A stretch of DNA of 64,000 nt from Crossaster papposus. Its lineage: Eukaryota > Echinodermata > Asteroidea > Velatida > Solasteridae. This document shows, in pieces, positions 25,191-60,170 of the stretch; the stretch's first letter is position 1, and the number at the start of each line of letters is the position of its first letter. The notes beneath the pieces are model-generated. The model did no database searches. It saw only the letters and a list, made by a program, of their open reading frames with translations, and was not told the DNA's origin. The stretch spans positions 124,001 to 188,000 of the forward strand of contig JBAIAA010000237.1 of NCBI GenBank assembly GCA_037893245.1. The letters run 5' to 3'. The position numbers and the translations under genes are program-made.

Positions 25191-26355
25191 TGGCCCTGTC
25201 ACACTAGAACGTTTTAGGCCAACGCGTGAGTAGCGCGTTAAAAATAGTTGATACGCTGGCAAACGCTGAACTTCCACAGAAAAAGTCAAGTGGAACCGTG
25301 ATTTCAGCGTGTCAATAACGCGTTGTTAACGGGTTCAATGCGTTCGCCAGCGCGTGAGAAACGCGTTAGTAACGCGCTCGACGACTGATGAACGACTGCC
25401 CAGCGCGTGAGTAGCGCGTTCCAACGCGCGCCAGCGTACTGCAACGACCACATGGTTAGTTGTATAAAAAGCCGACGCGCTACTACACTAATGGCCCTGT
25501 CACACCAGAACGTTTTAGACCAACGTGTTGGAATTTCGGTAACACGCGGGTAAACGTTGACAAACGCTAGGCTAGCGTTTGCAACTCGCTAAGCGCGTTA
25601 CCCACACGCTGGAACACGCTGTCACACGCTGAGGCAAAAATACATTTTTCAACATACCTAAAATTTTCAGCGTTTGCCAGCGTGTGCCTGCACACGCTGG
25701 CGGCGCGCAGGGTGGTCGTTAATCATGCGTCGAACGCGCTAGACGATCGTTACTAACCCACTCTCACACGCTGGCGACCCGCTGTCGTATTTTTACTATA
25801 AATCAGTGATACGTTCCTCACACGCTGAGCGCGTTCCTCATACGATACTCACGAGCTGGCATACGCTATGAACCCGTTATCAACCTGTATAGACACGCTG
25901 AAATCACGGTTCCACTTGACTTTTTCTGTGAAAGTTCAGCGATTGCCAGCGTATCAACTATTTTTAACGCGCTATACTCATGCATTGGCCTAAAACGTTC
26001 TGGGGTGACAGGGCCATAACCAGCGTGTCGCCAGAGTACGCCAGCGTACGCCAGCGTGCGCCAGCGTGTGAGTAGCGGGTTGATAACGATCGTCTAGCGT
26101 GTTCGACGCGTGAGTAACAAACCCCCAACGCTCCGCCAGCGTGTACAATCACACGCTGGCAAACGCTGGAAATTGTATGTATGTTGAACAAAATATGTTT
26201 TCCTCAGCGTGTGACAGCATGTCTCAGCGCGTGAGTAACGCGCTCAGCGTGTTGCTAACGCTGGCCTAGCGTTGGTCAGCGTTTGCCAGCGTGTTGCCAA
26301 AATTACAACACGTTACTCACGCGTTGGCCTAAAATGGTCTGGTGTGACAGGGCCA
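25191..26355. mobile_element. Foldback element (family F1) with an inverted copy of itself inside
   Basis: The outer ends read TGGCCCTGTCACAC at 25191 and its complement GTGTGACAGGGCCA at 26355, preceded by TAA and followed by TTA. The left arm (A, 25191-25488) is not complementary to the outer right arm (B', 26020-26355). Instead A pairs with the inner right arm and B' pairs with the inner left arm. This is what results if a second copy of the same family inserted in reverse orientation at the element's centre. The arms are made of degenerate subrepeats such as GCGTGAGTAGCGCGTT. It is non-coding; the 3-base TWA target duplications suggest PIF/Harbinger-type mobilisation (inference). Confidence 0.8.
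25492..26016. mobile_element. Inner, oppositely oriented F1 copy
   Basis: 525 bp bounded by TGGCCCTGTCACACC and GGTGACAGGGCCA with a perfect TAA duplication on both sides (25489-25491, 26017-26019). Its left part is the reverse complement of 26020-26355 and its right part is the reverse complement of 25191-25488. Confidence 0.8.
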
Positions 26356-26743
26356 TTAGGCAAAGAAGATGCCGCATCGCGCGTACCGCATCGCACCAAA
26401 CAATGATCGTATTTGGCGAGCCTGATTTATCAGCGCTATCTCGACCAACAAACATCGCGCATTACACGCGTGTGCCTACATGTTCGGCGGTCATGGCTGG
26501 GACTATTCTTGAGAGATAACATTATGACAAATCACGCCCGCTAGTCTCTTTTCTAATTTAATAACAAAACAAAAAAAACAAAAAAAACAAAAAAAAAGTA
26601 ATTTCAATCTACCTACGAAGTTGGACTGAGAAAGTCTCGTATTTTCCCTATACCCCAAGCTCTCATTGCTATACCGCGAGAACCATCGACGAGATTATAC
26701 GTTATCTAAAAATATTTGTTAAACTTAAAACCACATTAGTTAA

Positions 26744-27124
26744 AGGGATCGTATACGTTTGGTAATTGGAACCCACTGTTTGTTTCAATCCTATATAGTT
26801 ATAGATATATACCATAAAAATAACCTGTAAAAATTTCATTTCAAAAGGTGGTAGCGATTTTGAGATATTGAAAAAAATCTGGAGCGGTTATGTCCACGTA
26901 GGAAGAATAATCTGCATTGGAATACACAATCTGAGAAACGTCACTGCAGTAACGCTTCTCAGATTCACATTTTTTGGGGATAAAAAGTGATATCTTTTTC
27001 CATAACCGCAGTACTTCGAAGTGAAAAGTTTATAAAAATGCATTATACTATCCAAAGCTGTTGTACCGAGTAGGTTTTTATTGACATTAATTTTTGGAGT
27101 AATTACCAAACGTATACGATCCCT
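26744..27124 (-). mobile_element. MITE family T, copy 2
   Basis: 381 bp, inverted relative to copy 1, with AGGGATCGTATACG ends, TTAA on both sides (26740-26743, 27125-27128) and the same internal CTGCAG-centred palindrome. Confidence 0.9.
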
Positions 27125-27210
27125 TTAAAGTTCTTAATTATTTAACACGCCTACATTTGGAACCTGTTTGTTTCGCGCAGACTCGGTGATCCGGAGCGAG
27201 GTTGGTTCGC

Positions 27211-27240
27211 AAGATCTAAAGATGGCGACGTTCGCGACGA
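27211..27240 (+). promoter_or_regulatory. YY1-like ATG-containing site
   Basis: AAAGATGGCGACG followed by TTCGCGACG resembles a YY1-type initiator overlapping an ATG. The frame it opens is about 23 codons. It lies inside the intron with no other gene evidence. Confidence 0.12.
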
Positions 27241-27404
27241 ACAAAGAGATAATTTTTTTAAGATTTGAGCCAATATCTTATAGGGGCTAGACCCTTCGCA
27301 TGCACGTGACGTCAACTTCTAACCTTCGCTACTGCTTTTTTCCAGCATGTACTTTGCATCGCATTTTTGTATTGCATTTGTTTGACCCCAGGGGTCAACT
27401 TTCA

Positions 27405-27648
27405 GGCTCTATTTCATAGAGCTGCAAAGCACCCAAAAAAATGCTAAGCATAACAATTCTTCCTTGGCAAAAACAGCGTTACAAACTGAATTTTCAGGTG
27501 ATGTTTATTGTTTGTGACTGGTATTAAGCTGGTCTGGGTTTAGCATGAAAAGCACACGTGGATACATGACTGGTCCTGTTTTCAACTTAGCAAGGTTTTA
27601 TTTATGATAAGCAAACTTCTGTGCTGAGCAGCTCCATGAAAATGACCT
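27405..27648. mobile_element. TIR element family C, diverged copy
   Basis: Left end GGCTCTATTTCATAGAGCTG and right end CAGCTCCATGAAAATGACC are inverted complements. The interior has TTAGCATGAAAA, CCTTGGCAAAAACA and TGCTTAGCA-type blocks shared with 39413-39656. Confidence 0.75.
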
Positions 27649-28671
27649 CTCAGTGTTCCACTTTGTTTGCTTTGCCCACTTTCCGGACGCAGCGGCGTCT
27701 TTTCGCCGCCGGCACGCATGTTTCCAATCTCTCTAACACACAGTGATTTCCTTTGAATCCTCTCTCCGAAGTCATTTTGTGTGCACTGTTATTAACAGAC
27801 CTTTTGTTGGTCGATCTTCCACTTCGCTGTGTATACAGTCCCATTCCTTATAAGCCAGGTTTCTCGGGCATCGTCGAATACAACAAGGCTGAAGTAATAG
27901 GTACGAAGTCATTGACTCGATACACACTCGCAAGTTGCCAGAGGGAGCCATTTTATTAACCTACTTAGCGCACCTTTTTGTGCAATACTTTTTTTTACAA
28001 GCTTTAGAAAAGACTACACTCTTTTGACGTACACGTAACTTTTTTTGTAGCATTAATGTACAAGATGGGTTTTGAATATATCGTTAGAAATGTGTACTTC
28101 ATAAGCCGCTGATTGGTCAATTTGGCTTTATTGTTTTTGTAATACAACACCGGGTTAATAAAAACCGAAGGCCCGATAGAAGACGCCCGCTGAATGGCCA
28201 GATTCTGTCTTGTTTTGCATAACTAATCGCCGAATACAAAACGTCCACTCTTTATTAAAATGACAGCACATCAAATGCTACAATTCACAGGATGCTTGAG
28301 ACAACTATTCACTTACAACAAGTATAAGGTACAGGTATTTCATGAATATTTAGTGGCTTCGTTTTGTTATGTTTGCAAAATGTTGTTTACTTATAGGAAG
28401 ATGATGTCTGCATCATACAGAGCATTAAAAATGTGCACACAAACTTCACCATAAGGCCATTATTTAAACGGCAACACCTCGGAGAATGTGTATAGTTTCA
28501 ACTCAACTCCGATATAAAAGACCGAGTGTAGAGAGCGCGAACCGTCCGGTAGCCTTGCCGCCTCTGATGAAAGTACAGCCCCGGTTGTTAGTTCATGAAT
28601 TTAGTTTATGAATTAAATAAACAACCGGTTTGCCTTGGCTGTGTGGAGAAACAAGTCGAAAACTTCCTGAA

Positions 28672-28694
28672 CCCCCCCCCCCCCCCCCCCCCCC
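28672..28694. repeat. Poly(dC) tract, 23 bases
   Basis: Uninterrupted C run within the intron. Confidence 0.9.
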
Positions 28695-29728
28695 TTTATG
28701 CAACTCGTGTTTAAACATATATTATATGGAAACATTCACACGATCGCGTTTACCTATTTCTGTTAGCACCTTTGTTGTTTGTTGCGTCTTTCGTATGGGA
28801 TTTCTGCACAGTTTGGAGGGCAGACGGATTTAGACGGACGAACCACACAATTATGTTTCCCGCTTAAGGGAATTTTCGATAATACAATTTTCCTTTTATT
28901 GCATCAAGTGTGGGGCAACATACTCTGGCAAAATAGGTTTAATATTTTAAATAGTTACTATACTCTATCTTTCCTTACACCGAATAATTTGCTAACTCAA
29001 TCCAGCAATGCCACTGCATGGTGAATGTTGTTGTCGCGTGAAGTCTAAAAATGCAAAGACGCACTTTTGGAAATTTCCATTAGTAGTTAGTTCAAAATCG
29101 AACTTTTTTGATATTTTATTTTTATTTTATAGAATGTACAGCACTCACAGAGATAATACTTTGTCAGGTTAGTTGTCAAGCACCATTCCTCAAAACTGTC
29201 TCTGTTTTCATTGATAACAACAACAACAACTGACAAATGGTATACTATAACGTTTAAATTGACTTGACTATATACTGTTGATAATGTGACGGGTCAGGGT
29301 CGTTTCAAATTTGATTGGGCTTAATTGAATGCATATTCAAGTTTTGTAATTTCAAAAAACTTCAATTATGACTTTTTAGCCGAACGTGCATGTCAGATCT
29401 GTTGATGGTTTATTGTCTTTTCATTAATTTTATAACGAGAATTATAATTTCAACAAAAAAGCCCTGGTCACTATTATTATATCCCTCCAGCGACCTTTAG
29501 GTGCGCCATTTTTAAAGTTCATATCAAGTTTAAATTTCGAGTGAATGTGACATGGTCTGTTGATGGTGAAGTTTCTTACACATTCGATCCACAGACCGTT
29601 GCAAATACAGTGGTCTCATGGCCTGATGAACAGGGATAATAACCGTCAAGCGCCTTCCCATAGGTTTATTAAAAGCTCTATACAAGCAGGACATCAAAAA
29701 AGGCGAGTTTATTCGAACGTACGGGTAA

Positions 29729-30489
29729 TGCTACAGTCACACGGCCATGTTACGGACCTGCGGATGCCTGCGTATATTTGGATAATGAAAATGCGTAATT
29801 TTTAACCCCAATACGGAAATTTGAGCAAAAGTTACCTATATTCTGCGGACGATACGGATTAGTTACGGATGTTACGTATGAATTACGGATGTTACGGGTA
29901 AAACCTGCGGATGAACCCATCCGCTGCCAACCCGCTGGCACATGTTACTGACGACTTACGGATGACTTACGGATTTTACGGATGACTTACGAACGATACG
30001 GATGACTTACGGACGATACGGATAAGTTACGCTCGTGTCTGCGCATGTAGGCTTCCTCTGGCGTCCGCACCATCCGCAAATAAACCCACGTGGATCGGAG
30101 CTTGCTTCAGTCGCATTTCATCAAGTCTGAGATCTAGTTCCGGTTATTCAACAGTTTCTTCTCCATCTTTTTGATGTTTACGTACCCCTATGTATCCGCA
30201 GGCAACTGCACACCCGACAAAGTGTGCAGATCAGTTACGTATCTAACGTATCCTGCGGATGAGTTTACGTATCTTACGTATGAGTTACGGATGCTTACGT
30301 ATATTTCATCTGCAGCAAAATTTTGAGATTTTCAAAATTCCGCTGCGGATCTGCGTATGTCTGCGGATCCTGCGGATTGAATTACGGATGGATACGGATG
30401 CTTACGGATGATACGGATCCTTGCGGATGCTTACGGACTTTTATCCGTAAGCATCCGCAGCTACCGTAAGTGGCCGTGTGACTGTACCA
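29729..30489. mobile_element. Foldback element (family F2) built from TTACGGATG subrepeats
   Basis: The ends read TGCTACAGTCACACGGCCA at the left and TGGCCGTGTGACTGTACCA at the right, flanked by TAA and TTA. The arms are dense in variants of GATACGGATGACTTACGG, direct in one half and inverted in the other. The centre (about 30065-30190) is unique. It is non-coding. The termini resemble those of F1 (25191) and F3 (51162), which also begin with a C/T-CTGTCACAC-like core. Confidence 0.8.
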
Positions 30490-32151
30490 TTAAGGATATG
30501 AAACCAGTGAGATCGTGCGGATTCGGTGATATCGGTGTGGAATTAGCAGTTTTGGCACGGAGCTCACGAGCGAACGAAGGTCCTATATATACCGCGCGGT
30601 TCGGTCCATTTGCCCGGCAAAACCATCGGCTCATGTTTGTGTTGGCATCGCACCACTCGCCGCGCGCTACGATTGTGTACCTTTAGTGCGGGGCTAGTGC
30701 AGGCCAGAACAAAACCAACTACGACCGCTACAAGAGAGAGAAAGCAACAAGATCGACATAGTATATTCGGAGCGTCAACCGGCTATCATATTGAATTAAG
30801 CTGCCATGTAACATTATAAGTTGCACCTTCCCGCGTTAAGTGCTCTCGTGTTGTATTTAGTAATTGTCACAACGAGCTGGTAATTTAATAAAAGGAAGTA
30901 AGAACATTAGCGAAATTGTATTTCATTTCACTCGAGGAGGGACCGACTTGGCGCTGGGGTTAGGGGTAATGGATCCCTGCCATGCTCGGCCGGGGCGGTG
31001 CGGTGGTGCATGGTGGTTATAGTGGGATGTGTTTGTCCTTGCGCAAAGAAAATAGACAAGGAACTCGCAGCCGTGAACAAGTAAGGCGCGTACGTGCACG
31101 CGGCGCGCCCATGCAGTTAGTAGCGTTTTGGTTTACAGGGAACTATAGGTAAGACATGTCGCTGTGAGTTTATCTTACATCCTCGTTGATTTGATGACAT
31201 TACCGGAGACACAGAGGTGTGGGTTTCAGTCGAACGCACGCACAGAAACTGATTACATCTCTTCTTCGCTCTCACGGTGGGGGAGGCGGTGACTAGACCA
31301 CGTGTGCATCCTTTGTCTTAATCCACGCGCTGATAAGAGAGACAGAGGAGAGAAGATGATTTAAGATTTCTAGTCGTGACTACAGCCGGTAGCCTACAGT
31401 GTGGCGTGAAAAGATTCACAAACACGGACGTGTTTGCGTTTCCCTTTCGCACTTCAACTTCAAGCAAATTCCCGGGTTTCGGTTTTTATCAGATAGTTCG
31501 TTCTGCTTATATGTAGCCTTGTCTAGTCGTGTCGCCCTATCGCCAACGGCATAACCTATCCCGAGGATAATTAAAAACGATTAGAGACGCGGTTACAGGA
31601 GATTTCGTGTAACTGCAATATTACCCGATAGGCTGTGAAATGAATATAACGATCCCGTCAGTTGCTCGTGCCCTAGGCGACAGCCGATGTGTAAACACTG
31701 GCCTTTGATATAGGGAATTAAAGACCGTGTAAGACATGATTAAAATTGTAACAGCCGTTGAATTTCAATCCGTTATTATGACCGGGGTATAATACGGAAC
31801 TGTATCGCATGTTCGAAAATAATTGCATATTTCGATCATTTTGTTTTTACTTATGAGATGTTCAGAGGTCATTGTTGGTCTTACCTGATATTGATAATAA
31901 TGTCTTATTCATATGGATTGATTCTTACGCTCCAGCTTAACAAATCAGCGCTTTTTGATTCCCCGATGTTGAAAATGAGACGAATTGAAATAATACAATT
32001 TAAAATTGTTTAGGTGTCGGAAAAATATACTGACTGCTCAATTGTATTTATTGTAGTTTGGTAGTTTTATACCATAAAAGAAAATCTTAAACCTACACCT
32101 AAATAGCATGATTTTGTTCGCGCATTTTGCTTGGGCAAAAATTAACAATTT
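30490..32151. other. Intronic stretch without recognised features
   Basis: Moderately GC-rich, complex sequence. No exon, RNA gene or repeat was recognised. Confidence 0.4.
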
Positions 32152-32766
32152 GATGTCCAACTGAAAGAACATTCGGATCTATTCGTGGATCTTCGACGGT
32201 GAACGAGGCTGCACATGAAATAAAAACTAGCATTAGATGTCCATTTGAAAGAACCGTCGGATCCATTCTTGGATCGTCGACAATGAATAAAGTCTGCACG
32301 TGAAATAAAAACGATCAGTAGATGTCCAACTAACAGAACAATCGGATCCATTAGGATCTTCGACGGTGAATGAAGTCTGCACATAAAATAAAAACGAGCA
32401 GTATAGATGTCCAATCGAAAGAACAATCGGATCCATTTGGATCTTCGACAATGAATAAAGTCTGCACATGAAATAAAAACGAGCAGTAGATGTCCAACCA
32501 ACAGAACAATCGGATCCATTAGTGGATCTTCGACGATGAAAAAGTCTGCACATGAAATTAAAACGAGCAGTAGATGTCCAACCAACAGAACAATCGGATC
32601 CATTAGTGGATCTTCGACGGTGAATAAAGTCTGCACATGAAATAAAAACGAGCAGTAGATGTCTAATCGAAAGAACAATCGGATCCATTCGTGGATCTTC
32701 GACGATAAATAAAGTCTGCACATGAAATAAAAACGAGCAGTAGATGTCCAATCGAAAGAACAATCG
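32152..32766. repeat. Minisatellite, about 85-bp unit, 7.3 copies
   Basis: The units begin GATGTCCAA and contain AACAATCGGATCCATT, GGATCTTCGAC, AAGTCTGCACATGAAATAAA and ACGAGCAGTA. Unit length varies from 83 to 86 bases by small indels. Long minus-strand frames (up to 254 codons) run through it because the unit lacks stop codons on that strand; they jump frame between units and are not judged to be genes. Confidence 0.95.
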
Positions 32767-33471
32767 AGAAAAATATGACCGAGTTCAAGGGACATTGTTG
32801 TGTACCTATAACATTTTGGGGCTCCAGTAAAGGGTACTATAGAAGAGGTAAAATTGGGTTCGGGTATAATAAAGGAAAACAGAATAGGCACGGTGATGTT
32901 GAACAAATTATAGGTCGAAAGAATGTTTAGAGTTTGAGTTTAGAGAGATTTTCTTTGAGCACACGAATCATATGGAATGTCCCCATAACGTCATGTACTA
33001 AAATAAGGTATGTATATGTGTGTGTTATTGGAGAAGACCCAAGAATAACGACTTGGTGGTCTAATGTCGGACCTTTTCACACACCCCTCCTTGTTGAGTG
33101 ATTTGTTTAGCACAACAAAATGATGAATGAACATGCACACGTTGAACCTGTGTGTACAGCTTCGTGTGTGGTTGGAATTCCAGAAGTACATGTACATGTA
33201 AGTAGCTATAGCAGAAAGCTTTTGGAACCCCATGTAATATTGTTGTCAAAACAAATATTATTTTCTAGCGTTTTTCGAAAGTTACTTGTATTAAAATGTA
33301 CCTAACAGTAACATTCTTTACTAAAAATAAAAATGGGGAAAATAACTTTACATTTCTTTACATCTCTGTACATTTTTTTCACAGTTTCTCTGATTGGTTA
33401 AAAGAACGCATGACGTAGAAGAGCGTATACAGCCCGGTTGGTTGATTGCCGACCTCGTGTGTGTTCGCAGT

Positions 33472-33508
33472 GTTTAACCACGGATCATTTAATGGTCCGT
33501 GGTTAAAC
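33472..33508. repeat. Short perfect hairpin
   Basis: GTTTAACCACGGA and TCCGTGGTTAAAC are exact complements around an 11-base loop. Confidence 0.85.
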
Positions 33509-33719
33509 CTGCTCGAGTCATCTTTATACGTCGAGTGGGCTTTTGCGCGGCACCCGCTAACTGAGCGAAGTCGTATAGCTTGGATCGGATTGTTAAAAAG
33601 GTTTTAAGTAATAAGGTCAAGTAAAAAGAAAGTTGAAGGCATCTCTTCCCGGCCATCAAAAAACGACCCCTGCGTTTGTATTTAAACTTACAAAAAGTTG
33701 CATATATTGTAGAAATTTT

Positions 33720-33935
33720 AAAGGTGAAGAATACCTTGAACTGTCTAACAAGTAGTAACTTACCAAAATACTGTTAAAACGCTTATACTTGCTGTAAACT
33801 TGACACTAAACTCCCTGTGAAATTAATAGTAGTTGGTAGTTGGTTTGTAATCCAGGAATGGTGCGCGCAAGACGCACACGCGCACCCGCGCACCTGGGTG
33901 TTAATATTAGCAGGTTAAGTGCGTGACATGCGCGT
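33720..33935 (+). repeat. Dispersed repeat, copy 2 of 2
   Basis: Partner of 20353-20570, with the same ordered blocks. The middle differs by indels. Confidence 0.6.
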
Positions 33936-35052: not shown

Positions 35053-35077
35053 GGGGGGGGGGGGGGGGGGGGGGGGG
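35053..35077. repeat. Poly(dG) tract, 25 bases
   Basis: Uninterrupted G run on the + strand in the intron, about 1.3 kb upstream of the last exon. Confidence 0.9.
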
Positions 35078-37874: not shown

Positions 37875-38515
37875 CACTAGGAAAAGGTATGATGTGATTT
37901 TGCATTCAATGCGGACACGGTCCTTAGCTGGATGTGATTTCAACAAAATATGTCCAAATTCACATCCAAATTCACACCCTCAGTCCAAATTCACGTCTGG
38001 GGTTTACGTAGATGTGAATCCAGTGGATGTGAATTTGACTCCTTAACGACCTTATGCTGCGTTCCCATCGCGTCGTGTTTATCGTGTTCACCGTGATTTT
38101 CTCCATGTTCACGAGTGGGTTGCATTCCAAACGCTACCCACCAAGACGCACGCGCACAGTGGAGTTAGTCGTGCGGTAAGGACATTCTTTATCGCGCAAG
38201 AACTCGTACGTGAAACAACACGCATGCGCGAGTATTTCATTGGTTTATGAAGTCGTGAACATGGAGAAAAAAATTCCACCTCGAGTTCACCACTGGTGAA
38301 CACGAGTTACCAGGCGATTATAACGCCACTATACGACTCGTGAACACGATAAACACGACGCGATTGGAACGCAGCATAAGCCCAGGATGTAAATTTGAAC
38401 TGAGAATTTGGAGCATTTGGATGTAATTTTAAAAAAATCCCTTGTTGAAATCTCATTCTGCTAAGGACCGTGTCCGTTTTGAATGCCAAATCACATCCTG
38501 ATGTTTCCTATAGTG
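37875..38515. repeat. Foldback element family H, copy 2, interrupted
   Basis: The left arm (CACTAGGAAAAGG, GATGTGATTTTGCATTC) and right arm (GAATGCCAAATCACATCC, TTTCCTATAGTG) are inverted complements as in copy 1. The loop between the arms contains the separate TIR element 38055-38376. Confidence 0.8.
38055..38376. mobile_element. TIR element nested in the loop of H copy 2
   Basis: The ends TGCTGCGTTCCCATCGCGTC and their inverted complement match over about 37 bases with one mismatch. TA flanks both sides (38053-38054 and 38377-38378); removing the insert with one TA restores CCTTAAGCCCAGG, which agrees with copy 1. The interior carries further inverted CACGAGTT / GTTCACGAG blocks. It is non-coding. 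Confidence 0.8.
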
Positions 38516-43265: not shown

Positions 43266-43279
43266 GTTGAGTTCCCTGT

Positions 43280-44892: not shown

Positions 44893-45087
44893 AAAGCTTG
44901 CTGCTGATGATACTGTGACGCCAACAAAACAAGATCAGACAAAGCCAGTTCGGTATTCCAACTGCGCATGTCCACATCAAGGTTCGACCAATTGTATTGT
45001 TTTTATCTTGGGATGAACACGGAAGATAGAAAAAAATTGTCAAATTTTAAGGTGTACATGCATGCGTAGTTAGAATGCCAAACCGAC

Positions 45088-46836: not shown

Positions 46837-47301
46837 AAAGCCGTGTTCGCACTGGATAAACAGTTTGGGTAATTTGACCATGACGCCGGGTAACATTCCG
46901 ATGGGTTGATCTTCCCACCGTCCGCACTTGGATTTAATTGACGCGGGTAGAATTGCCGAGACGATGGGTAAACTAACCGAGCTGGCTCCAAAACAATAAA
47001 GAGGGCGTCCTGTGTGACCTATGACCGCGACTTGACGACCGGATCGTCGGTTCCCGACGCTAGCTCTCAACATTATTTTCTTACATAATGGGTGATGGAA
47101 GATTTAACCGAGACGTCGCGTCCGCACTGGATTCTGGCTCGGTTAAATCTTCCTGGTCAATCTTCCTAAACTACCCACGCGGCGTGGGTTAGTTACCTGT
47201 GAGGAAAGTTACCCAGGCTGTCCGCACTGGACTTGAAATGGGCAAGTTACCCATTGGCTCGGTTAGTTTGCCCAAATTAAGTACAGTGCGGACAGGGCTT
47301 T
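46837..47301. mobile_element. Foldback/TIR element family F4
   Basis: The left end AAGCCGTGTTCGCACTGGA and the right end AGTGCGGACAGGGCTT are inverted repeats extending through GGGCAAACTAACCGAGCC-type sequence. Internal inverted blocks (ACTAACCGAGC, GTCCGCACTGGA) make a complex foldback. A half copy lies at 50917-51057. Confidence 0.75.
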
Positions 47302-47860
47302 AGTCAAATCAGATTAACTCTGACTTTGTCGGGGTACCATCCACCAAATTGTGGGCATAATCGCAGGCACCGCGCCATTATATTATACATAATATAATGG
47401 CCACATAATATAATAACCACAGCGCGAATTTTTGCGATGGGATCAAACGATGTGATTCACGCCGCGTTTCGCGCCGCTGTTTCTTTGGAGAGACCGTGTA
47501 ATCGAAAATGTTGTATTTGGCGTCTCTTGTGTTCCTTTTGGAAAATTTTGAAAGGTGTGCTACGTGTGTTTTGTTGTACATTGTGCATGTAAAAGCAAAC
47601 CTTTCTCTTTTTTTTTTTTTTTGGGGGGGGGGCTAAATATGCTAAATGTTAAATATTACCCAAAATTATTACCCAAATTTACCCAGTTCAGTGTGAATCA
47701 ACCATAAGTGTGCGGTCAGTGACTACTCTTTAAAGGAATCGTATACGTTTGGTAATTACTCCAAAAATTAATGGCAATAAAAAACTTACTTGGTAAGAAG
47801 TACAGCAGCTTTTGATAGTATAATGCATTTAAAAAATAAATTCACTTCGAAGTACTGCAG

Positions 47861-49219
47861 TTTATTTATTTATTTATTTATTCCATTTCTTTACCCAGGG
47901 TGTGCCCAAACAGTTTAAAACTGGTTTTCATTGGGGCCCTGCATACATCATCAAATAAAATAACAGTACATATTATAAATACAAGGATATTACAGGAATT
48001 CTAAACATTAATACTAATTCTGATTTACGAGATAGGCAAAAACCCGCCAAATAAAAAACCTTTTAGGTGAAAAATAAGAAGGGGAAATTCCTATCCGGCT
48101 CCACATTATAGTGGCAACCAAGTTCTAACTCCGTAGATCAGCGCAATTGGCATAATATCTAACACTCAGATGGCATGTCGGAGCTCTGATTTAAATGTGC
48201 TTAATGAGTCCAATGTTCGCAATTGTTCGGGCAGATTATTCCAAATATTTGCACCACTCACAGCGAAACTTGTGACGTAGCATTCTTTTTTGGCGAAAGG
48301 AACTTTCAGTGCCGTGTGGGTTGATTGCCTTGTTTCGCGAATTACTGTAAGTGGTTTGAAAATATTTGTCATGTACAAAGGAGTCATTTTGTTGATACTT
48401 TTGAAGACAAGAATAGCCTTTTTTGACTTGACTCTTTTTGAAAAAGGGGTCCAATTAAGACGAGCAAACATATCCTCTGAAGGGGTGAGGAAGGGACATT
48501 TAAGGATTATCCGCGCGGCTCTTTTGAGACATTTGTTTAACATATTATCGTGAGATATGTACCTTCCTCCCCACACAGTACAACAATACTCTAATGTTGG
48601 CATAACTAGACTTACAAATAGTGTGTGCAAGCTGTGCTGAGGAATACAATCACGAATTCTTCTTAGTATACTTAATTTAGACACCACATTTTTTCTTACG
48701 TATTCGACATGTGGGCCCCAACTTAATGCTTCATCAATAATTACACCCAAACATTTATAAGACTTCACATTTTCAATACGACTACCAGCAATGCATACAT
48801 TTAAATTAACATTAGATATTTTCTGCCTAGTACCAATAAGCATGCATTTGGTTTTGGTGGCATTTAAAGCTAGCTTGTTTCTTCCGCACCAGTTGTGAAA
48901 ACTAGTAAGAGCTGTATTTAAGCTACTTTCTATTATATTAATGTTGGAGGAGCTACACGTTAATGTTGAGTCATCTGCATACATAAATAAGTTGCAGTTT
49001 GGGGCAATACAAAATGGAAGGTCACTAGTATAAACAATTAATAAAAGTGGACCTAGTATCGACCCCTGTGGAACACCAGTGTTTACGGACAGGACCTTTG
49101 ATATGGTGCCGCCAATATTCACAGACTGACTACGTTCACTTAGGTACGACTTAAACCAATTTATTACAGAAGATGACATGTTCATCCTTTCTAGTTTCTT
49201 TAGTAAGATTTCATGATTT
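47861..49219 (-). mobile_element. 5'-truncated non-LTR retrotransposon (CR1/L2/Jockey type)
   Basis: On the minus strand the copy starts at 49219 inside the reverse transcriptase domain and ends in a short-repeat tail seen on the + strand as TTTATTTATTTATTTA (47861 onward). It interrupts the MITE between ACTGCAG and ATGGAAAA with no obvious target duplication. Truncation at the 5' end and a tandem-repeat tail are normal for target-primed reverse transcription in this clade. Confidence 0.9.
48166..49217 (-). pseudogene. Reverse transcriptase C-terminal fragment
   Basis: An open frame of about 350 codons with no stops or frameshifts. It begins at NHEILLKKLERMN, just after the first catalytic motif, contains GVPQGSILGPLL and the catalytic YADD box (FMYADDSTL), then the thumb (KCLGVIIDE) and the conserved C-terminal NLPEQLR region ending FKSELRHAI. 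It lacks the endonuclease and N-terminal RT parts, so it cannot act alone. The unbroken frame suggests a young insertion. Confidence 0.9.
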
Positions 49220-49721
49220 TATGGAAAACGATATCACTTTTTATCCCCAAAAAATTGAATCTGAGAAGCGTTACTGCAGTGACGTTTCTCAGATTGTGTA
49301 TTCCAATGCAGATTATTCTTCCTGCGTGGACATAACCGCTCCAGATTTTAGGCAATATCTCAAAATCGCTACCACCTTTTGAAATGAAATTTGTACAGGT
49401 TAGTTTTATGGTATATATCTATAACTATATAGGATTGAAACAAACAGTGGGTTCCAATTACCAAACGTATACGATCCCTTTAAAAGTTGTGATTTCAACC
49501 ATTAAAATGATGAATTCAACCAATTGAGTGTTGAATTAATCAGTTTTATGTATGGAATTTCAACTTTTCAAGAGTAGTCACTGACCGCACATGACTGTAT
49601 AAGGTGGATTCAACACTTTAGTTTTAAGCGTGTAGTTACTTGAGGCCGCGCCAAAGTTCCTGCTAAACTTTGCAATCGTTTGAACTTTGTGGCAGTCTTT
49701 AAAGTGTCTCAAATTAATTCA

Positions 49722-50916: not shown

Positions 50917-51057
50917 AAGCCCTGTCCGCACTGGACTTAATTTGGGCAAACTAACCGAGCCAATGGGTAACTTGCCCATTTCAAGTCCAGTGCGGACAGC
51001 CTGGGTAACTTTCCTCCCAGGTAACTAACCCACGCCGCGTGGGTAGTTTAACCGAGC
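50917..51057 (+). mobile_element. Half copy of family F4
   Basis: AAGCCCTGTCCGCACTGGAC through CACGCCGCGTGGGTAGTTTA matches, inverted, the right half of 46837-47301, then stops. Confidence 0.7.
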
Positions 51058-51125
51058 AAAAGGTGCCCAACGCTTCTTGGAGCAGTCGTATGGATCCTTA
51101 AGCTTCCGGGAGGGGTCTTAATTTC

Positions 51126-51161
51126 TTACGAGAGTTTTGGTTCAGACCAAAACTCTCGTAA
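51126..51161. repeat. Perfect hairpin at the edge of F3
   Basis: TTACGAGAGTTTTGG and CCAAAACTCTCGTAA are exact complements around a 6-base loop. The last TAA is the target site of the F3 element. Confidence 0.85.
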
Positions 51162-53001
51162 TACCCCTGTCACACCGGAGCTACGCTGCCGTTGCGCTCC
51201 CACGGCGACTAAAAAAGTTGAAAAACGCAGTAGAAGCGCAGTATATTGCCAAGAGCGTAGTGGGAACGTAGTGGAGTCTACCTAGGTCGTGGAAGGGTCT
51301 CCATGGTCGCCAAACCTCGGCGATTGTTTTGAGCCTGCTCAAAACAATCGCGGAGGGTCGGCGACCTGGTCCAAAACGCAGTGAGAGCGTAGTGGGATCT
51401 CAAAGAACGTACTAGGGACGTAGTGAAGTCTACCTGAGCGTGTCATGATCGTAGCAAGAGCGAGTTGGTATCGCCGTCTGCCCAATCTGCGACTGATACC
51501 CCTGTCAGACCGGTGTGCAATCCCACAGCGACCTTACTGCGATGCAGTTTTCATCAAAAACGCAGTGGGGTCGCCGAAAACTGGCAAAAAATCCTGAAAT
51601 CTATGAGGTAGGTAGCTCACAGTACGCTCTTGACTCGCTCACTGCGCTCTCATACACTCTCACTGCGACCTATGCGTTCCCAGTTTGATCATCGCCGCGC
51701 TCTCACTGCGCTCCCACTACGCTCTACGCGATCTCGCTGCGACCAAGGCGACCTCGCTACGACCTCGCTACGACCTTACTACGACCTTACTACGCTCTCA
51801 CTACGTCCCCACTACGTTATGTGCGTTTGTACCGCGTTCGCGCGGCGACTATAAATACATCGAGCTCGATGTTGCTGGATATTTGCTATCTTTTGTACAA
51901 TTATTATGTTCTGCCTCTCTACAGCCATGGTGAAGAGGAGATGCACATTAGTATGTTGTGTGGAGGATATAGGCTGCATTTATACCATTTGTGGCCATTA
52001 CGCATGTCCAAGTCAGAACGTACTATACACGCAGTATAATCACACTGTGAACGTACAGGAAGCTCCGTAACATCGCCATAGACGCATTAGGGGCGCCATA
52101 GTCGTACTGGCAGCCCCGTGTAGACGCAGTATGAGCGTGAAGAAGCCTTATACGACGTAGTAGAAGCGCAGTAGGAGCGCGGTAAGAGCGTAATGAGAGC
52201 GTGACAAGCGTACAGTGGTCGTACTTCAGACGTACTTCAGTCGCAGATTGGGCAGACGGCGATACCAACTCGCTCTTGCTACGATCATGACACGCTCAGG
52301 TAGACTTCACGACGTCCCAAGTACGTTCTTTGAGATCCCACTACGCTCTCACTGCGCTCCCACTGCGTTTTGGACCAGGTCGCCGACCCTCTGCGATTGT
52401 TTTAAGCAGGCTCAAAACAATCGCCGAGGTTTGGCGACCATGGAGACCCTCCCATGACCTAGGTAGACTCCACTGCGTTCCCACTACGCTCTTGGTGACC
52501 CTACTGCGCTTCTACTGCGTTTTGCAACTTGTTGTTGTTGCCGTGGAAGCGCAACGGCAGCGTAGCTCCGGTGTGGCAGGGGTATTACCACGGCTGTAGA
52601 GAGGCAGAACATAATAATTGTACAACAGATAGCAAATATCCAGCAACATCGAGCTCGCTGTATTTGTAGTCGCCGTGAGAACTCGGTACAAATGCACAGA
52701 ACGTAGTGGGGACGTAGTGAGTGCGTAGTAAGGTCGTAGCGAGGTCGTCTTGGTCGCAGCGAGATCGCGTAGAGCGTAGTGGGAGCGCAGTGAGAGCGCG
52801 GCGATGATCAAACTTGGAACGCATAGGTCGCAGTGAGAGTGTAGTGAGAGCGTAGTTAGCGAGTCAAGAGCGTACTGTAAGCTACCTACCTCATAGATTT
52901 CAGGGTTTTTTTGCCAGTTTTCGGATACCCCAATGCGTTTTTGATGAAAACTGCATCGCAGTAAGGTTGCTGTGAGATCGCACTCCGGTGTGACAGGGGT
53001 A
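51162..53001. mobile_element. Foldback element (family F3) with an inverted copy of itself inside
   Basis: The outer ends TACCCCTGTCACACCGGAG and CTCCGGTGTGACAGGGGTA-type are flanked by a perfect TAA duplication (51159-51161, 53002-53004). The left arm A (51162-51494) pairs with 52241-52584. The right arm B' (52588-53001) pairs with 51497-51932. The order A-B-A'-B' means the two inner arms belong to a second, oppositely oriented copy. Arms are built from subrepeats such as GCGTAGTGGGAGCGCAGTGA. Long open frames on both strands are by-products of the repeat. It is non-coding. Confidence 0.85.
51497..52584. mobile_element. Inner, oppositely oriented F3 copy
   Basis: 1088 bp bounded by TACCCCTGTCAGACCGG and CCGGTGTGGCAGGGGTA, with flanks TGA and TTA (imperfect duplication). 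Arms B and A' enclose about 308 bp of middle sequence (51933-52240) that the outer copy lacks. Confidence 0.8.
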
Positions 53002-53009
53002 TAAGAAAA

Positions 53010-53105
53010 TTACGGCAGTGCTACAGAAATATAGACTGCAACGCTTCCTCAACGCCTCATCAACGCTTCCGCAACGCCTCCTCAACGCTTCCACAACTGC
53101 CGTAA
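53010..53105. repeat. Small foldback enclosing a CAACGCYTCCTC tandem repeat
   Basis: TTACGGCAGT and ACTGCCGTAA are inverted ends. Between them, CAACGCTTCC / CAACGCCTCCT repeats about six times (53038-53095). Confidence 0.75.
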
Positions 53106-53115
53106 CAACTACCGC

Positions 53116-53212
53116 ACAGTGCGAGGACCCGGTTATTACTGCGTGATAATGACCGGGTTGGGGGATGACCGATGGTAATGGACCTCGCCGAATAACCGGG
53201 TCCTCGCACTGT
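53116..53212. mobile_element. Miniature TIR element, 97 bp
   Basis: The first 20 bases, ACAGTGCGAGGACCCGGTTA, are exactly complementary to the last 20; pairing extends to 22 bases. Confidence 0.8.
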
Positions 53213-53874
53213 TATTCCCTAAATAACTCACTGTTCAATTTTATTCTGACACAACCACTTAAGAGATTTTATTTCGGTTTTTCGAGGGGCACCACCGAAC
53301 TATCGTTAAAAAAAAACGGCCGAGATTACCAACACGCTGCAAATTGAACTCGAACGTACAATTCATTATGGACAGCGCTGCGCCCTGATTGGAATGGCAT
53401 GATTTCTATGGGGTACATTGTAGCAGAAAGTAGGGTTACCAGTGAAGCTTTTTTTGGCCCGTTTTTGTTAAGAACCTTCTTAATACGAATCACCGAAAAT
53501 GTGTGGGTTTAAAACGAAAGAACACTAATTGAACACTCGCTTCAGATCACTTGTCCATAAACCTGACGTCTGTATACAAGCCAATACCCCAAAACCTTCT
53601 CTCTTTTTCCATTACTCGTCTGCCGTTATAACAAAAAAAGAGAGAATCGAAGAAAAGTGGAGGGGAAAATCGTCTTCGAGAAAACAACTGACGTGCAGCG
53701 CAACAGCTCTTCAGCCCTCGATCGCGCGCCATGCAGATAGAGTGATTCATCCAGAAAAGGCGAGCTGCGAAAAAAACATAAACACAGAACAACCTCCGTT
53801 ACGAATTATTCTCTTTGTTCACCCGTGAATTAAAAAAAATCTAGGGGCTTGTTAGTTGGTCATGCGTGGCTGAC

Positions 53875-54150
53875 ATGGTCTCCTGGATGGAACAGGAGAG
53901 AGAATTAAAAGAAGAGAAAGGGGAGAAAAAACCGCAGGAAAAGAAAAAAAACAGAGTCAAAAAGCGAAAACTGCGGGCGGCCGAGATCAGCGTAGCGAAC
54001 GGGCCGTCATTCGGTAGACATGACCGGTATGGATCGATGGGGGAAGGCGGGCCGTGTCCGTTATCTTCCCCTTCGTCCAGCCATCCGATTGATGACATTT
54101 TACGTGGCCTGTTGCTGCTTGTCACTTCCCTGTTATGTGCACAAAACTAA
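53875..54150 (+). CDS. Possible ORF, Lys/Glu-rich with IDDIL motif, unknown
   Basis: An ATG at 53875 opens 91 codons. The N-terminal 35 residues are Lys/Glu-rich (coiled-coil-like), followed by a Gly/Ser/Pro-rich part and SSSHPIDDILRG, which loosely resembles the eh1/octapeptide motif of paired-type homeodomain proteins, then a hydrophobic tail. The opposite strand is open too, and purine-rich DNA makes chance frames likely. I do not recognise a family. Confidence 0.15.
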   Translation: MVSWMEQERELKEEKGEKKPQEKKKNRVKKRKLRAAEISVANGPSFGRHDRYGSMGEGGPCPLSSPSSSHPIDDILRGLLLLVTSLLCAQN

Positions 54151-54229
54151 GCCACGAGTATCTCTAGATCAGTGAGAATTGTTGTAAACAGAGCCACAAC
54201 GTTGTGCCGTGAAATATCTTAATCGGTGT

Positions 54230-55444
54230 CATGGGCGGATCCAGGATTTGTTTAAAGGGGGGGTCCACCCAAGGTCCTAGGCAAGATTTTTTGAATTGGG
54301 TGTGTAAAAATAAAATGTGGGGGTGTAACAATTTGAGTACATGTACATGTAACTGGGAAGCATGTAGGCCTACGCGAAGCGCACATCACGAGCGCGTAGC
54401 GCGAAGTCTCTGCGGCCGGGGTTCAGGGCCCGCTTAAGGGCCCTGAAATTTTTTGGTTTTTTAGGTGCCCTCTGGCGCAATCTGAGGCCAATTTCTACCT
54501 ATTTTTTGTTAATGTTGTGGCAATATGAAGCCTGATTTTTATACCATTTTTTTTTAAAATCTAATATTTACCATTTTTAGCTGGAATGATAACTTGAAAT
54601 AAATTTTGACCAGAGGAGTATATTATGGATACCGGTATTGGAAGTTTGGATTTAAAAACAGCGCACACTGACTCACACTACGTGTAAAATGAGGCAACGG
54701 TTAATTGGTCATAAACCTTAGGCATACTTAACATAGGCAGGATTTGGCTGGGAGCGACCGGCAATGACTCCATTTAAAATAATAAACAAATTACAAGCCC
54801 TAATAGTTATTAAGTAAGTTTAATTTAAAGTTGTATGTTAAAATAAAATGTTACAAGTTGTGTTTAATCTTTAAAAAACTACACGCCAAACTCCCGCTTG
54901 TGCTAGCGGGGTTTATTCCGACCGTCTCTACAAACGGTGGAAAAAGCGGCGTGTTTGTTCCAATTTAGTGTTTAGTAATTTACATAAATTTAGCTTAAAT
55001 TTAGGTCACGTGACAAATATATAAACACTGTGGTTAGCGCCTATTGCACTCGTTCTGCTGGGGCTACTTTTATTGGCAAGTCTGCCAAGTAAATGGGCCC
55101 AGTGGTGAGCCAAGCATGGCATTTGGGGCAAGCCTGCCCCGTTCAAGCTTATGAAAGCGTTTAAAAAATTAAAATATGTAATTGCCTGAAATGCAATAAG
55201 AAGGAATAAACAAACTAGCGGCTCGAAAAACTAAGCCAAAAAAGTCAAATCATAGTCTATATGGTTGTTATTTTGTGTGTGTGGTTTGAGAATAATACAC
55301 GTATGTGTATGTGTACATGTACGTTGCTTGTTAGGTGAAATACATTTATTTATTTTTTTTTATTTTATTTTTTTTTTTTTTTTTTCACTCAAGAAAAAAG
55401 GGGGGGTCCGGACCCCTTGGACCCCCCCCCTGTATCCGCCCATG
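54230..55444. mobile_element. TIR element with CATGGGCGGATCC ends
   Basis: 1215 bp between CATGGGCGGATCCAGG and CCTGTATCCGCCCATG, with GGGGGGGTCC and GGACCCCCCCC inside each end. GGTGT flanks both sides (54225-54229, 55445-55449) and is the probable target duplication. The interior is AT-rich with no transposase frame. A long T-rich run lies at 55345-55386. The superfamily is not assigned. Confidence 0.8.
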
Positions 55445-56029
55445 GGTGTCCAATGTGTCATATTAAAACACGAAATTGAATTGATCGTAAAAAACAAAGT
55501 GCCGCCAACTCGATCAGAGTGAAAAATAAATTAAACAAAACGCCAGATTAAAGTGAAAGTACAGCTTTTGAAGCAAATGAATTCCAAAGATGCGTCTTAT
55601 AAGTAGCACAATCTACGAATTATGAGTATAATTGTTTGGATGTCGGAACAGCAAACTATCTGTTCTGAAGTGCGCCCAGGCAGCAAAGGAAAAACGGCAG
55701 CCGAGAAAGTACTCTGCCCCGGCGTCAATTTAGTCGCGAAACAATCAACGTCATTGCAGTAACATCGGCAAGCGACGACCCCGAAGCAGGGTTTCATGAG
55801 CAATTACAGGCTGACTTGATCTTTACCGAGGTGAGAATTGACATCGAGAATACCTCCCAATTACCCCACATACGGGATCGGAAAAGCTGCAAGATCATTG
55901 GCGGTGCGTGAGCTGCCCTAAAATGCCTACTCGTCATTCCAGTTTGTCATCTTTTGGGTTCTTTTTTTGTGTTTTATTTGATAGATCGAAATGAATGTGC
56001 TGCGGTTAATCGCGTAAAGGTGCGAACTC

Positions 56030-56105
56030 GCGGAGTGATATCTCGCGGAAGATTTATATAGTGACCTGCGCGTACTTGGGATTCCAAGATGGCGGCGAAG
56101 CAATA
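56030..56105 (+). promoter_or_regulatory. Possible TATA-less promoter (TCTCGCG and YY1-type sites)
   Basis: TCTCGCGG at 56041 is followed 45 bases later by CCAAGATGGCGGCGAAG, the arrangement of a YY1-type initiator whose ATG is at 56089. That ATG opens only 13 codons. If real, it would be the start of an unrecognised housekeeping-type transcript. Confidence 0.25.
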
Positions 56106-56708
56106 CACCGTTAGTGAAGCGTCCTCCTGAAAACAGCGGTTTTTTTATCAGATTTTCAGTGTAATACTATCTTTATTGTAAATTGCATCTCGTCCGAATC
56201 TTTTGTTTCCTTATGTAGGATCTAGGATCCTTATTTTATGCTTAAAACCCTACAGCTACGGAAATGTCCCTGTGAATAAATCTGAGATCTGCTCTAAAAT
56301 CCTCATGTTTGGGATTTAACTTCTAATTCCAAAGGTCTTGTTAAAAGTAAACTAACATAACCTAATATTTTACTGTCTTAATGTTCCAGAGAAAAGACGA
56401 AATACATTTATGACGTGGAGGACATTGTTTTACAACATAGGTCTACACATAGTACAATCATACATGTTTACAGCTGTAGATATAAGTCTTCTTCCCTCAC
56501 ATCTACTTCCGCCTCACGGGCCACATTTACATAAATAATTGTTATATAAGGATAATAAGGTCTATTCCTCCAGTTTTGGTTACGTGAAATCGGCAGCTAC
56601 CGGACCTAATAATTCATGAGAAATACTAAGATCCTTTTGATCTGGGAACCAGGCTATGATTTAACGCGTTTCCTGGCCCAAAATGGGCGTATTCCCGGAC
56701 GCGATTTG

Positions 56709-57062
56709 TTTTCCGTACCACTAACGCGTCTGATCGGCTAATTTTTTTCCGCAGAACGACTTGGTCAGAGCCTTTATACCTTTTTCTATAAGACCCTATC
56801 TAGATGAGATTATTAACCAATAATTTTGATTAATAGAAAAAGGTATAAAAGTCGTGTATACGAAAAACTAGGGACTGTATACAATTAACTAGGGACTGTA
56901 TCCATTTATTTTGGTGAATTATGGCTGTCAACGTCGTTGGTCTTCATACGTTCCGCGCGTATCAAAATCGATTCAAATTGAAGCGCGCGCTTTGTATTGG
57001 TCTCCATTTGAGTCGCCTCATTCCAATGAAACGGCCGATCTGACGCGTTAGTGGTACAGGAA
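56709..57062. repeat. Inverted-repeat element, about 354 bp
   Basis: TTTCCGTACCACTAACGCGT and its near-complement (ACGCGTTAGTGGTACAGGAAA region) bound the stretch. Inside, TACCTTTTTCTAT and ATAGAAAAAGGTA form a second inverted pair (56778-56849). Confidence 0.6.
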
Positions 57063-58095
57063 AATATCACTTCCCGGACAGAGTGTCCCTTTAACGTTTT
57101 CTGCAGAGTCCCTGCCACTTTTTGCTGTCCGATTTCACCTTTGTATAGTCTCGTATACTTAAAGTCTCTGAATTCGGGCCATGGGAACTTAAACCATTGC
57201 ATATGTTGAACAATTTACGGAGCGCACAGTGGCCAAAGCAAACGAGTTCGTAATTACATCACCCGAGATTGTGTTGACAGTGTTTAAGGTGTCGACGTCT
57301 TGGGATACGATTGTACTTTCTTCCCCTGAACCAAAACAATATATTCAGCTTAAACACTGTTTCATGCGATATTCATCGCGGTCGTGCTTGAGATAGTGTA
57401 GATTTGTTTGTAATAATAAAATACGAAAATTGCCAACTACGTTTGCCTAACCGTTTGGGTTCTTTTGTTTACTTAAAAAAGCCTCGTAGTTGTATTTTCT
57501 GAGTTGATGACTGACGTTACATTACTGCGCACAAGGGATAACGTGTGGTCACACGTTGATTATTACATTAGGTAAACCAACATCTTAATTTTAAATATAC
57601 GCACAGCTAGGTCAGTGACTGATTGTATGTGACATTCATAAATTCCGGAAACAGTTTAGCCATTCCTATTGGTCGAGAGCCCGACACGTGGGTATGTTTA
57701 AAACATGACCCAGTAGGTTTTGAACGCTTGTTGGCGTCGCATTAAATTTGGCCTCCTATGAAGTCTGGTCAACGACCCTTTTTAATTGGTTGAAACCTCA
57801 CACAGCATACGCAATACAACCAATGAGACAGTCCCAAAAACCATTATCATTCACATTAGTACTAATTCACATCACGCCATTATCAAGCCATACCGAAAAA
57901 CAGGTGGAACGCGCGCGTCTATTTCCATATAAGGGCATGTGCGTGAGGCACATACCAATACAATAGCTATAGATTGGTATTCCTCAAAACACGAGGTAAA
58001 ATTGTTAAACCAAAACGTTGGAAAATTGTAATTCGTGACTTGTTTCGACTTTTTTAAACGAAATGTATTTATGCATGGGAAAATAATTTGGTTAG

Positions 58096-58466
58096 TACAT
58101 TGGTAATTGCTTGAATTATCATGAATGGGTGGATTTGGGGTGTTGTATTTTATAGTAAATATCGTTTAACTGACCTGTCTGAAGTTTCACAATCATGTAT
58201 GCCGAGAAAAGCAAGGAAAACCGCATGCGTTTTCAACTGGCGTCGGGTAGTTATTCTTATGTTGCTCTTGTTTTTTCGCGTTCGCCGTCCGGCGATTGTG
58301 AATTTTTCAAAATAAAATTCAATTTTGTTTGAACAATTATTACAGAATATCTAGAGCAATCATTTAGCTGGATGCCTAGAATCGTTATTTACTTTCAGAT
58401 AAATAAGATACTTCTTAATAATTCAGTAGTAAATATTTTCGATATCTGCAAATGGTGTATCCTACC
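58096..58466 (+). mobile_element. MITE family G, copy e, left end decayed
   Basis: Starts at TACATTGGTAATTGC with the first bases lost and ends GGTGTATCCTACC without a clear TTAA. The interior is typical of the family. Confidence 0.8.
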
Positions 58467-59470
58467 AAATATGTTTAAATAAAAGGTTATGCCTGAACAT
58501 TTTTTATGCCCTCGCCTTTAGCTCGGGAATTAACGCGTCCACGCTCACGAGCCGGTTTTAAACATCACGGCCAACGACATAATTATATTCCCTTATTTAA
58601 GATGATTTTGGTCATTTACGAAGATCGTTCTTATATCTTGCATCTATTATATCTGGACTTTTCATTCGGCTCCTAAATCATCCCAACGTTAATCGAGTGT
58701 TTACAATAGAAAATACATCTGTCTGGAACTACAGTTGGGCCCAACATAATAAGCACAAAGCGCGTTTTTCAAGTACTCAACCAAATCATTTATCACGCCG
58801 CACTATTAACTACAATAATAGACACGCATTTCTTTACACGACACTCACACCTCTCCGCTTCGCTGTAATAACCCGGCATATTTTTTTTCATCTTGTTTAC
58901 AAAGTCATTATTTTTAGGGGTGTTGTATAAACCCCCATCCTATTCCTGCCCGTCGCAAAAACAACAAAAACTGTTGCCGGTTGTTCGCGAGCATCGTGCG
59001 TGTGTCAGATAACTAATCATTTTCGAGGCGATTACGATTATACCGACTGACGTTTTGGTTCTGTCTTTTTGGTTGTTGTTGGGGTTTTTTTCATCGTGTG
59101 TTATGTCATATCGCGCACCGTTTGAACCATGTGACTCCCGCAGCATCGGTCATTCCGTGGGCCGCGTTCAGGCACCCTTTCGTTGTCGGGTAATTTTGAC
59201 AGAAATGCCGGACTGCCTATAATACCCTCCCAGGCAGACGTGCATGAATAGATTATTTTGCTTACTCGCATTCTTACACAAAGTAAATCCATCTCTGTTT
59301 TCTCAAGGCGATAAACGAGATAACGATGATGAAGCTTAAGAGACACGCTGAAATGATTCGATTAAAGAATGTAATATATTAGCCTTTGTCAGCACCCCTG
59401 ATTAAAAGTGCATCATATAGAGTAGCAACGAAATCGTCACTCGCTGAGTTTTTATACGACCAAAACTAAC
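58467..59470. other. Intergenic, no recognised feature
   Basis: No repeat, exon or RNA gene was recognised. Confidence 0.35.
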
Positions 59471-60170
59471 ACCACGAAAGGGCATGGTGTGATTTTGCAT
59501 TCAAAGCCGACACGGTCAATAGCAGAATATGATTTCAACAAAAGATTTCCAAAATCACATTCAAGTGGTTCAAATTCACATCCTCTTCCAAATTTACATC
59601 CCGGATAAGGTCGTTAAAAATGTAAATTCACATCTAGTGGATGGGAATTTGCACTTAAAAGGAAGTATACACCATTTGCAGATATCAAAAATATTTACTA
59701 CCGAATTATTAAAAAATATCCTACTCATCTGAAAGTAAATGTTGATTCTGGGCATCCAGCAAAATTATTGCGCTAGATATCCTGTAATTATAGCAAAAAA
59801 TAGAATTTTATAAAGAAAAATTCAGAAAAAACAAAGATAACATAAGAATAACTGCTCGACGCCGGTTGAAAAAACCCGCTGTTTTTCGTGCTTTTCTCGG
59901 CATCCATGATTCTAAAACTTCGGACAGCTCAGTTAAACGATATTTACTATAAAATACAACCCCCCAAATCTACTCATTCATGATAATTCAAGCAATGACC
60001 AATGGTGTATACTACCTTTAATGACTTAACAGAGGATTTGAATTTTGAAGAGGATGTGAATTTGAAGCATTTGGTTTTGATTTGTTTGGAAATCGTTTGT
60101 TGAAACCACATCCTTCTACTGGCCTTGTCCGCTTTTGATGCGAAATCACATCAAGCCGATTCCTATAGTG
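59471..60170. repeat. Foldback element family H, copy 3, interrupted
   Basis: The left arm (GATGTGATTTTGCATTC at 59486 onward) and right arm (GCGAAATCACATC, TTCCTATAGTG) pair as in copies 1 and 2. The loop contains MITE G copy f. Confidence 0.8.
59659..60017 (-). mobile_element. MITE family G, copy f, nested in the loop of H copy 3
   Basis: Left end AGGAAGTATACACC, right end GGTGTATACTACCT, with TTAA on both sides (59655-59658, 60018-60021). Orientation is opposite to copy b. 359 bp. Confidence 0.85.

Follow-up and report, generated by a model that had tools for sequence, protein, structure and literature searches.

A 64,000-nucleotide stretch of the Crossaster papposus genome (positions 124,001 to 188,000 of contig JBAIAA010000237.1, assembly GCA_037893245.1; hereafter the window) contains five palindromic elements, each of which an earlier note had taken for a foldback element with an insert between its arms. 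We found that three of them (at 37875, 47690 and 59471) are indeed interrupted, and that those at 25191 and 51162 have an A-B-A'-B' order of arms that is common to their families. We put at about 85% the probability that the three are ordinary nested DNA transposons, whose sites are set by the word that each incoming element targets (TTAA or TA, TTAA being present in the host family FB2 only near the centre), and that the two represent fixed interleaved composite families. It is these interleaved families, FB1 and FB4, that are the unusual part; the concentration in loops is explained by the known choice of target words. Palindromes at about the noted places were confirmed by self-alignment of all five and are designated FB1, FB2 (two copies), FB3 and FB4 (coordinates in the table below). 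The assembly searched, of which the window is a part, comprises 1.02 Gb in 1841 contigs.

In each interrupted copy a terminal inverted repeat (TIR) element is nested within another element and flanked by a duplication of its target word: TA for the insert at 38055–38376 and TTAA for those at 47734–49479 and 59659–60017. The last of these belongs to a TTAA family, M1; among the copies examined whose ends were reached by alignment, TTAA was found at 17 of 21 5' ends and 16 of 18 3' ends. The insert in FB3 is of the type of a second TTAA family, M2, whose TTAA duplication was seen in this one copy, and its reverse-transcriptase fragment matches Pfam RVT_1 (E = 6.5e-15). Pairing at the insertion sites was judged by folding the elements, with their flanks rejoined, as single-stranded DNA. 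The 47730 site in FB3 has three of four bases paired, with 31 pairs inside and 33 outside it, and the 59470 copy of FB2 pairs in its own fold almost to the centre, with the 59655 site in the stem. The site in the 37875 copy is paired only in a small local hairpin and corresponds to the innermost stem of the consensus. All three are genuine insertions, each at TTAA or TA, and on these folds they lie in arm sequence rather than in a loop. The statement that no TIR element had entered a foldback arm is contradicted by the 47730 site (3/4 paired), the 59655 site (4/4) and arm insertions in FB1, FB2 and FB4 loci. Of the proposal that at least four families of inserts, foreign or self, used TTAA, TA or TWA, the use of TTAA and TA stands, but there are three inserts of three families, with no self insert and no TWA site.

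Built from 14 of 30 loci, the FB2 consensus has a length of 324 bp and is 94% self-complementary. Its TTAA words are confined to positions 138 (S1), 176 (S2) and 184 (S3), all within 138–187, the central 50 of 324 bases, so elements that use TTAA must land centrally. Five of the seven FB2 insertions fall within this segment (binomial p = 0.0014), although the idea arose from the window copies, which supply two of the five; when they are set aside, three of five do so (p = 0.029). All five central insertions lie at TTAA or at the TA within it, and the two outer ones have duplications of 6 and 7 bp and no TTAA. Per base, the central clustering in FB2 looks real, but it coincides with the sole positions at which the consensus has TTAA. 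Among the three explanations offered in the earlier note, site availability is the best supported, the richness of centres in TTAA/TAA sites being supported for FB2. Assignment of the 59655 site to S1 was considered and rejected, as this copy in plus orientation aligns to S2 and the minus chain breaks at q143|152. Among the matches listed there were dozens of near-identical FB2 centres ending in GGATGCG (on contigs C156, C186, C640 and others), including four on C156 spaced ~260–270 kb apart, which suggests that an FB2 piece resides in a recently amplified element or large repeat. In one FB2 copy (L084) the centre has expanded to a GGATGTGAATCCAGT tandem array, so that a palindrome is becoming a satellite.

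The fold predicted for the FB2 consensus has S1 and S3 paired and S2 unpaired, which makes a comparison of stem and loop possible within 50 bases. Patterns of an occupied site (14 host bases, TTAA and 11 M1 bases, with up to three mismatches) had 21 matches for S3, 12 for S1 and, for S2, 9 at the left or 7 at the right junction; the matching empty sites numbered 324, 231 and 375, respectively, and each of seven reversed M1/empty-site searches returned no match. M1 occupied 33 of 588 stem sites (5.6%) vs 9 of 384 loop sites (2.3%; Fisher p = 0.015). The p-value was 0.004 with the right-junction count for S2, 0.013 when occupied sites were limited to two mismatches (stem 22, loop 4) and 0.014 for S3 against S2 alone. 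One right-junction S2 match comes from the 59470 copy of the window, which has this site paired when folded by itself, and the loop count is therefore an upper bound; some of the three-mismatch S2 matches may also lie outside FB2, and either correction would bring the loop value down further. For M1 in FB2, the density of insertions per target site was not higher in the loop than in the arms. The earlier note had named equal density per site as the outcome that would speak against its idea, and the difference ran in the opposite direction to a loop preference. No loop preference was seen, and we claim none for the stem either, because the flanks common to S1 and S3 are absent from S2. For M2, among the matches listed (100 of 736) and with up to two host mismatches, there were 3 at S3, 5 at S1 (two rows being identical and one doubtful) and 2 at S2, a small sample that points the same way as M1. 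In 14 of the 100 matches listed M2 ends directly at a TTAA preceded by an apparent M1 end (GGTGTATC...), although the contexts that can turn up in this count are set by the degenerate pattern; it seems that an element may insert at the TTAA duplications left by an earlier one.

Insertions were also counted across FB1, FB2 and FB4, which were chain-aligned to 90 loci and the window, with the junctions read; insertion calls from a gap finder had been dropped, since cross-matches between arms gave many false events. The FB1 and FB4 samples consist of 30 loci each, the best matches to an arm A query, with the window copy included in each; arm A candidates at first look numbered 1188 for FB1 and 560 for FB4, and 40 were scored per family. 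Being the best arm A matches, the FB1 and FB4 loci are young copies whose arm A likeness is inflated by selection, and the choice of loci by arm match would, if anything, hide arm insertions. There were 15 independent identified insertions, 13 of them in arms, where 13.1 were expected from arm length, and two in the pooled non-arm stretches of the three families, where 1.9 were expected. Without the two window copies 11 of 13 were in arms (11.3 expected) and two elsewhere (1.7 expected); with two-sided events only, the arms received 11 of 12 (10.5 expected). The arm insertions comprise five in FB1 (L032 and L036, both self; L038; L042; L056/L060), two in FB4 (L005, where the incoming family has similar ends, and L019, a self-insertion) and six in FB2 (L061, which is the 37875 copy, L067, L079, L068, L080/L083 and, as its own fold indicates, the 59470 copy). 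The remaining two are in a non-arm stretch of FB4 (L020/L023) and in the FB2 loop (L088). The shared junctions L056/L060, L020/L023 and L080/L083 were each counted once, and one-sided events were counted where the insert was identified (L032, L056/L060, with the far host side missing, and L020/L023). One-sided breaks with unidentified sequence were left off (L004, non-arm; L009, arm; L064, L075 and L087), as were deletions and rearrangements (L008, L016, L017, L021, L044, L049, L054, L078, L090), a repeat of part of B (L007), a replacement of 456 bp by 698 bp (L037), L068 q206|185, the satellite expansion of L084 and the position of L038 itself inside another FB1 end. The apparent concentration in loops disappears in this like-for-like comparison: FB2 insertions do seem to cluster centrally per base, but the pooled non-arm stretches hold no excess.

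Several observations weigh against placement by target word. The sample of 15 events is small, and the 95% interval of non-arm enrichment (0.13–3.2 fold) makes it a weak test with which a modest loop preference is compatible. In the genome-wide comparison S1 against S2 alone gave p = 0.11. S1 and S3 are inverted copies with common flanks and the flanks of S2 differ, so stem and loop are confounded with local sequence; the test covers TTAA elements in a single host family; the near-identical group of FB2 centres contributes to the empty-site counts; and the M2 control was not clean, with one reversed match. Nevertheless, it appears very improbable that incoming elements have a preference for extruded cruciform tips, where the DNA is single-stranded or bent, and so strike loops more often per target site. 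The crowding of FB2 insertions at its centre, with or without the window copies, would fit such a preference, and sections of the literature report insertion sequence (IS) elements in bacterial repetitive extragenic palindromic (REP) sequences (PMC1525189) and a weak preference for palindromes in nested plant long terminal repeat (LTR) elements (PMC6911290). However, M1 took the loop site less often than the stem sites, the 47730 and 59655 sites are paired, and FB1 and FB4 were struck in their arms in seven of eight identified events. It is likewise unlikely, if less so, that arm insertions are equally common per site and that an interrupted arm is simply hard to recognise by eye. Alignment to family copies did recover arm insertions beyond the window, which makes this plausible for a reading by eye and accounts for why arms seemed to be spared; it leaves unexplained the central clustering in FB2, which tracks the TTAA positions. 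With placement by target word, each incoming transposase would pick its own short word in duplex DNA, ignoring cruciform extrusion.

FB1 and FB4 depart from an ordinary foldback element, with its nested arm order and single centre: arm A pairs across B, and B pairs across A', so that the order is A-B-A'-B' in FB1 and A-B-L-A'-B' in FB4, crossing rather than nested by self-alignment. All four arms were present in this order at 26 of 30 loci for FB1 and at 19 of 30 for FB4 (eight of the latter have their final arm labelled B reversed, equivalent to B'; strict labels give 11, and counting L016 gives 20), and several of the remaining loci are cut, deleted or interrupted. The A-B-A'-B' order is a family-wide fixed composite architecture, and the window copies of FB1 and FB4 are therefore without insertion. 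In the 26 FB1 and 11 FB4 copies compared, paired arms inside one copy are on average 81–91% alike and the same arm in different copies 90.6–99.8% alike; the higher likeness between copies indicates that the composite has spread as a unit. The FB1 termini are TGGCCCTGTCACAC and GTGTGACAGGGCCA, mostly adjoined by TNA triplets, and those of FB4 are ACCCCTGTCACACC and GGTGTGACAGGGGT; both families have ends of the CCCTGTCACAC type. Triplets flanking the outer ends of FB1 at 29 loci were identical (TAA, TTA or TGA) at 16, which indicates that the whole composite has moved, TAA on the left with TTA on the right at seven, and otherwise mismatched at six. Such mismatches between sides (among L031 and L033–L060) occur although a true 3-bp duplication should be identical, and the middle base of the triplet may have been repaired or copied from the opposite side. 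A piece of a second FB1 stands directly before arm A, in a fixed relative position, at eight of the 40 scored places on five contigs (C720, C612 four times, C177, C169 and C162; read at L056 on C720 and L060 on C612), as if the FB1-FB1 dimer had itself been amplified.

FB1 and FB4 align with each other only at the ends, over 11–21 bases (E of 0.08 or worse), so the architecture either arose twice or is very old. In FB4, the sequence at the inner limit of arm A is CTGCGAC-TGA-[B end], where its partner continues CTGCGAC-TGA-AGTACG, and B' reads GTGG-TAA-[A' end], where its partner B continues CATGG-TGA-AGAGG. These junctions show mutual nesting, each element having inserted in the other; two simple insertions, in whichever order, would be expected to yield a nested structure, unlike that of FB4. 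We tentatively prefer, at somewhat less than even odds, an origin in which related elements nested repeatedly, the outermost ends served for mobilisation and one inner hairpin was lost. In this scheme E1 would have entered E2, the A-to-B' unit would have been mobilised, E2 would have entered A, and the inner B' would have been lost. Besides the junctions, this route is favoured by present-day insertions of self or sister elements (L032, L036, L019 and L005) and by the TNA triplets that flank most outer ends. On the other hand, the A-B-B'-A'-B' intermediate was not found among the arm orders of the 60 loci, L007 merely repeating part of B; low-complexity motifs in common could account for the weak resemblance between L and the arms; and the A-B junction of FB1, which has a 93-bp spacer, is unclear. 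A more doubtful idea is that A-B-A'-B' is a recurrent, stable transposon architecture adopted independently by two high-copy families with unrelated arms and the same kind of ends, the crossing arms being unable to form one long hairpin and so escaping hairpin-driven deletion or silencing.

These results bear on how nesting is read from sequence. The cruciform-tip question can be posed as counts at neighbouring sites inside a single host family, and nesting seen by eye calls for caution, as composite families mimic insertions and centre-only target words mimic a structural preference. If general, interleaved families would offer a testable case of a palindromic element that grows long arms without forming one long hairpin.

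Features of the palindromic elements and their inserts (window coordinates)
Feature	Position	Strand	Description
FB1	25188–26358		1171 bp; interleaved double palindrome; from self-alignment, genome loci and flanks
FB1 arm A	about 25188–25394 (self-alignment from 25181)	+	pairs with 25812–26026, 86%
FB1 arm B	25488–25789	+	pairs with about 26047–26359, 82%
FB1 arm A'	25812–26026	-	self-alignment
FB1 arm B'	about 26047–26358	-	self-alignment
FB4	51158–53005		1848 bp; interleaved double palindrome; from self-alignment and genome loci
FB4 arm A	51158–51496	+	pairs with 52237–52588; stops at TGA immediately before B end
FB4 arm B	51493–51931	+	pairs with 52587–53005
FB4 middle L	51932–52236		305 bp between B and A', not within paired arms
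FB4 arm A'	52237–52588	-	self-alignment
FB4 arm B'	52587–53005	-	self-alignment
FB2 copy	37875–38513	+	interrupted near centre; alignment to family
TIR insert in FB2	38055–38376		TGCTGCGTTCC.../...GGAACGCAGCA; TA duplicated; at TTAA S3, inner end of right arm
FB2 copy, variant	59470–60170	-	interrupted; pairs almost to very centre
M1 insert in FB2	59659–60017		TTAA duplicated; rejoined site paired 4/4 (stem)
FB3	47690–49603		small palindromic element; self-alignment and fold
M2-type insert	47734–49479		TTAA duplicated; in FB3 left arm, not loop; reverse-transcriptase fragment inside
FB2 copy	821–1126	+	uninterrupted; absent from the earlier note

Other repeats in the window include two inverted stretches, 47167–47300 and 50917–51050, which lie 3.6 kb apart on either side of FB3, are 98.5% identical and apparently both belong to a single small TIR family with CCCTGTCCGCACTGG ends. 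There are also two tandem arrays, at 14739–15360 (18-bp unit, 34.6 copies) and 32152–32766 (85-bp unit, 7.3 copies).

Elements of the piggyBac and Kolobok groups duplicate TTAA. M1 and M2 resemble them in the TTAA duplications at their flanks. Miniature inverted-repeat transposable elements (MITEs) of the PIF/Harbinger type are described, in part of one source, as having 3-bp TTA/TAA duplications and TIRs of 14–25 bp (PMC2213677). FB1 and FB4 resemble them in their short related ends; FB1 has identical triplets on both sides at 16 of 29 loci, against TAA/TTA pairs at seven of 29 and other mismatches at six. Nested or multimeric MITEs with a preference for a target word are likewise known from sections of two papers (Jiang and Wessler, 2001, as cited in PMC2836001 and PMC10664404). 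The three window insertions show no essential difference from these, being cases of a DNA transposon within a short DNA transposon at a position tied to a short target word, whereas FB1 and FB4 are interleaved. The insertions described here resemble those of IS elements in REP palindromes (PMC1525189, in part) in that palindromic repeats are the target, but no excess in loops was found. In Drosophila melanogaster, palindromic target motifs are reported, in a portion of PMC3276498, to be the rule for TIR and LTR elements. None of the papers listed for inverted-repeat elements of the foldback, composite, overlapping or interleaved kind describes interleaved double palindromes, as judged by titles and the beginnings of abstracts. 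The arms of the foldback elements Galileo and Tetris pair in nested order. Sections of several papers describe these elements as having long inverted arms that are internally repetitive (PMC3573991, PMC2775673, PMC4079207), a feature shared by FB1 and FB4, which differ in that they pair A with A' and B with B' in crossing order.

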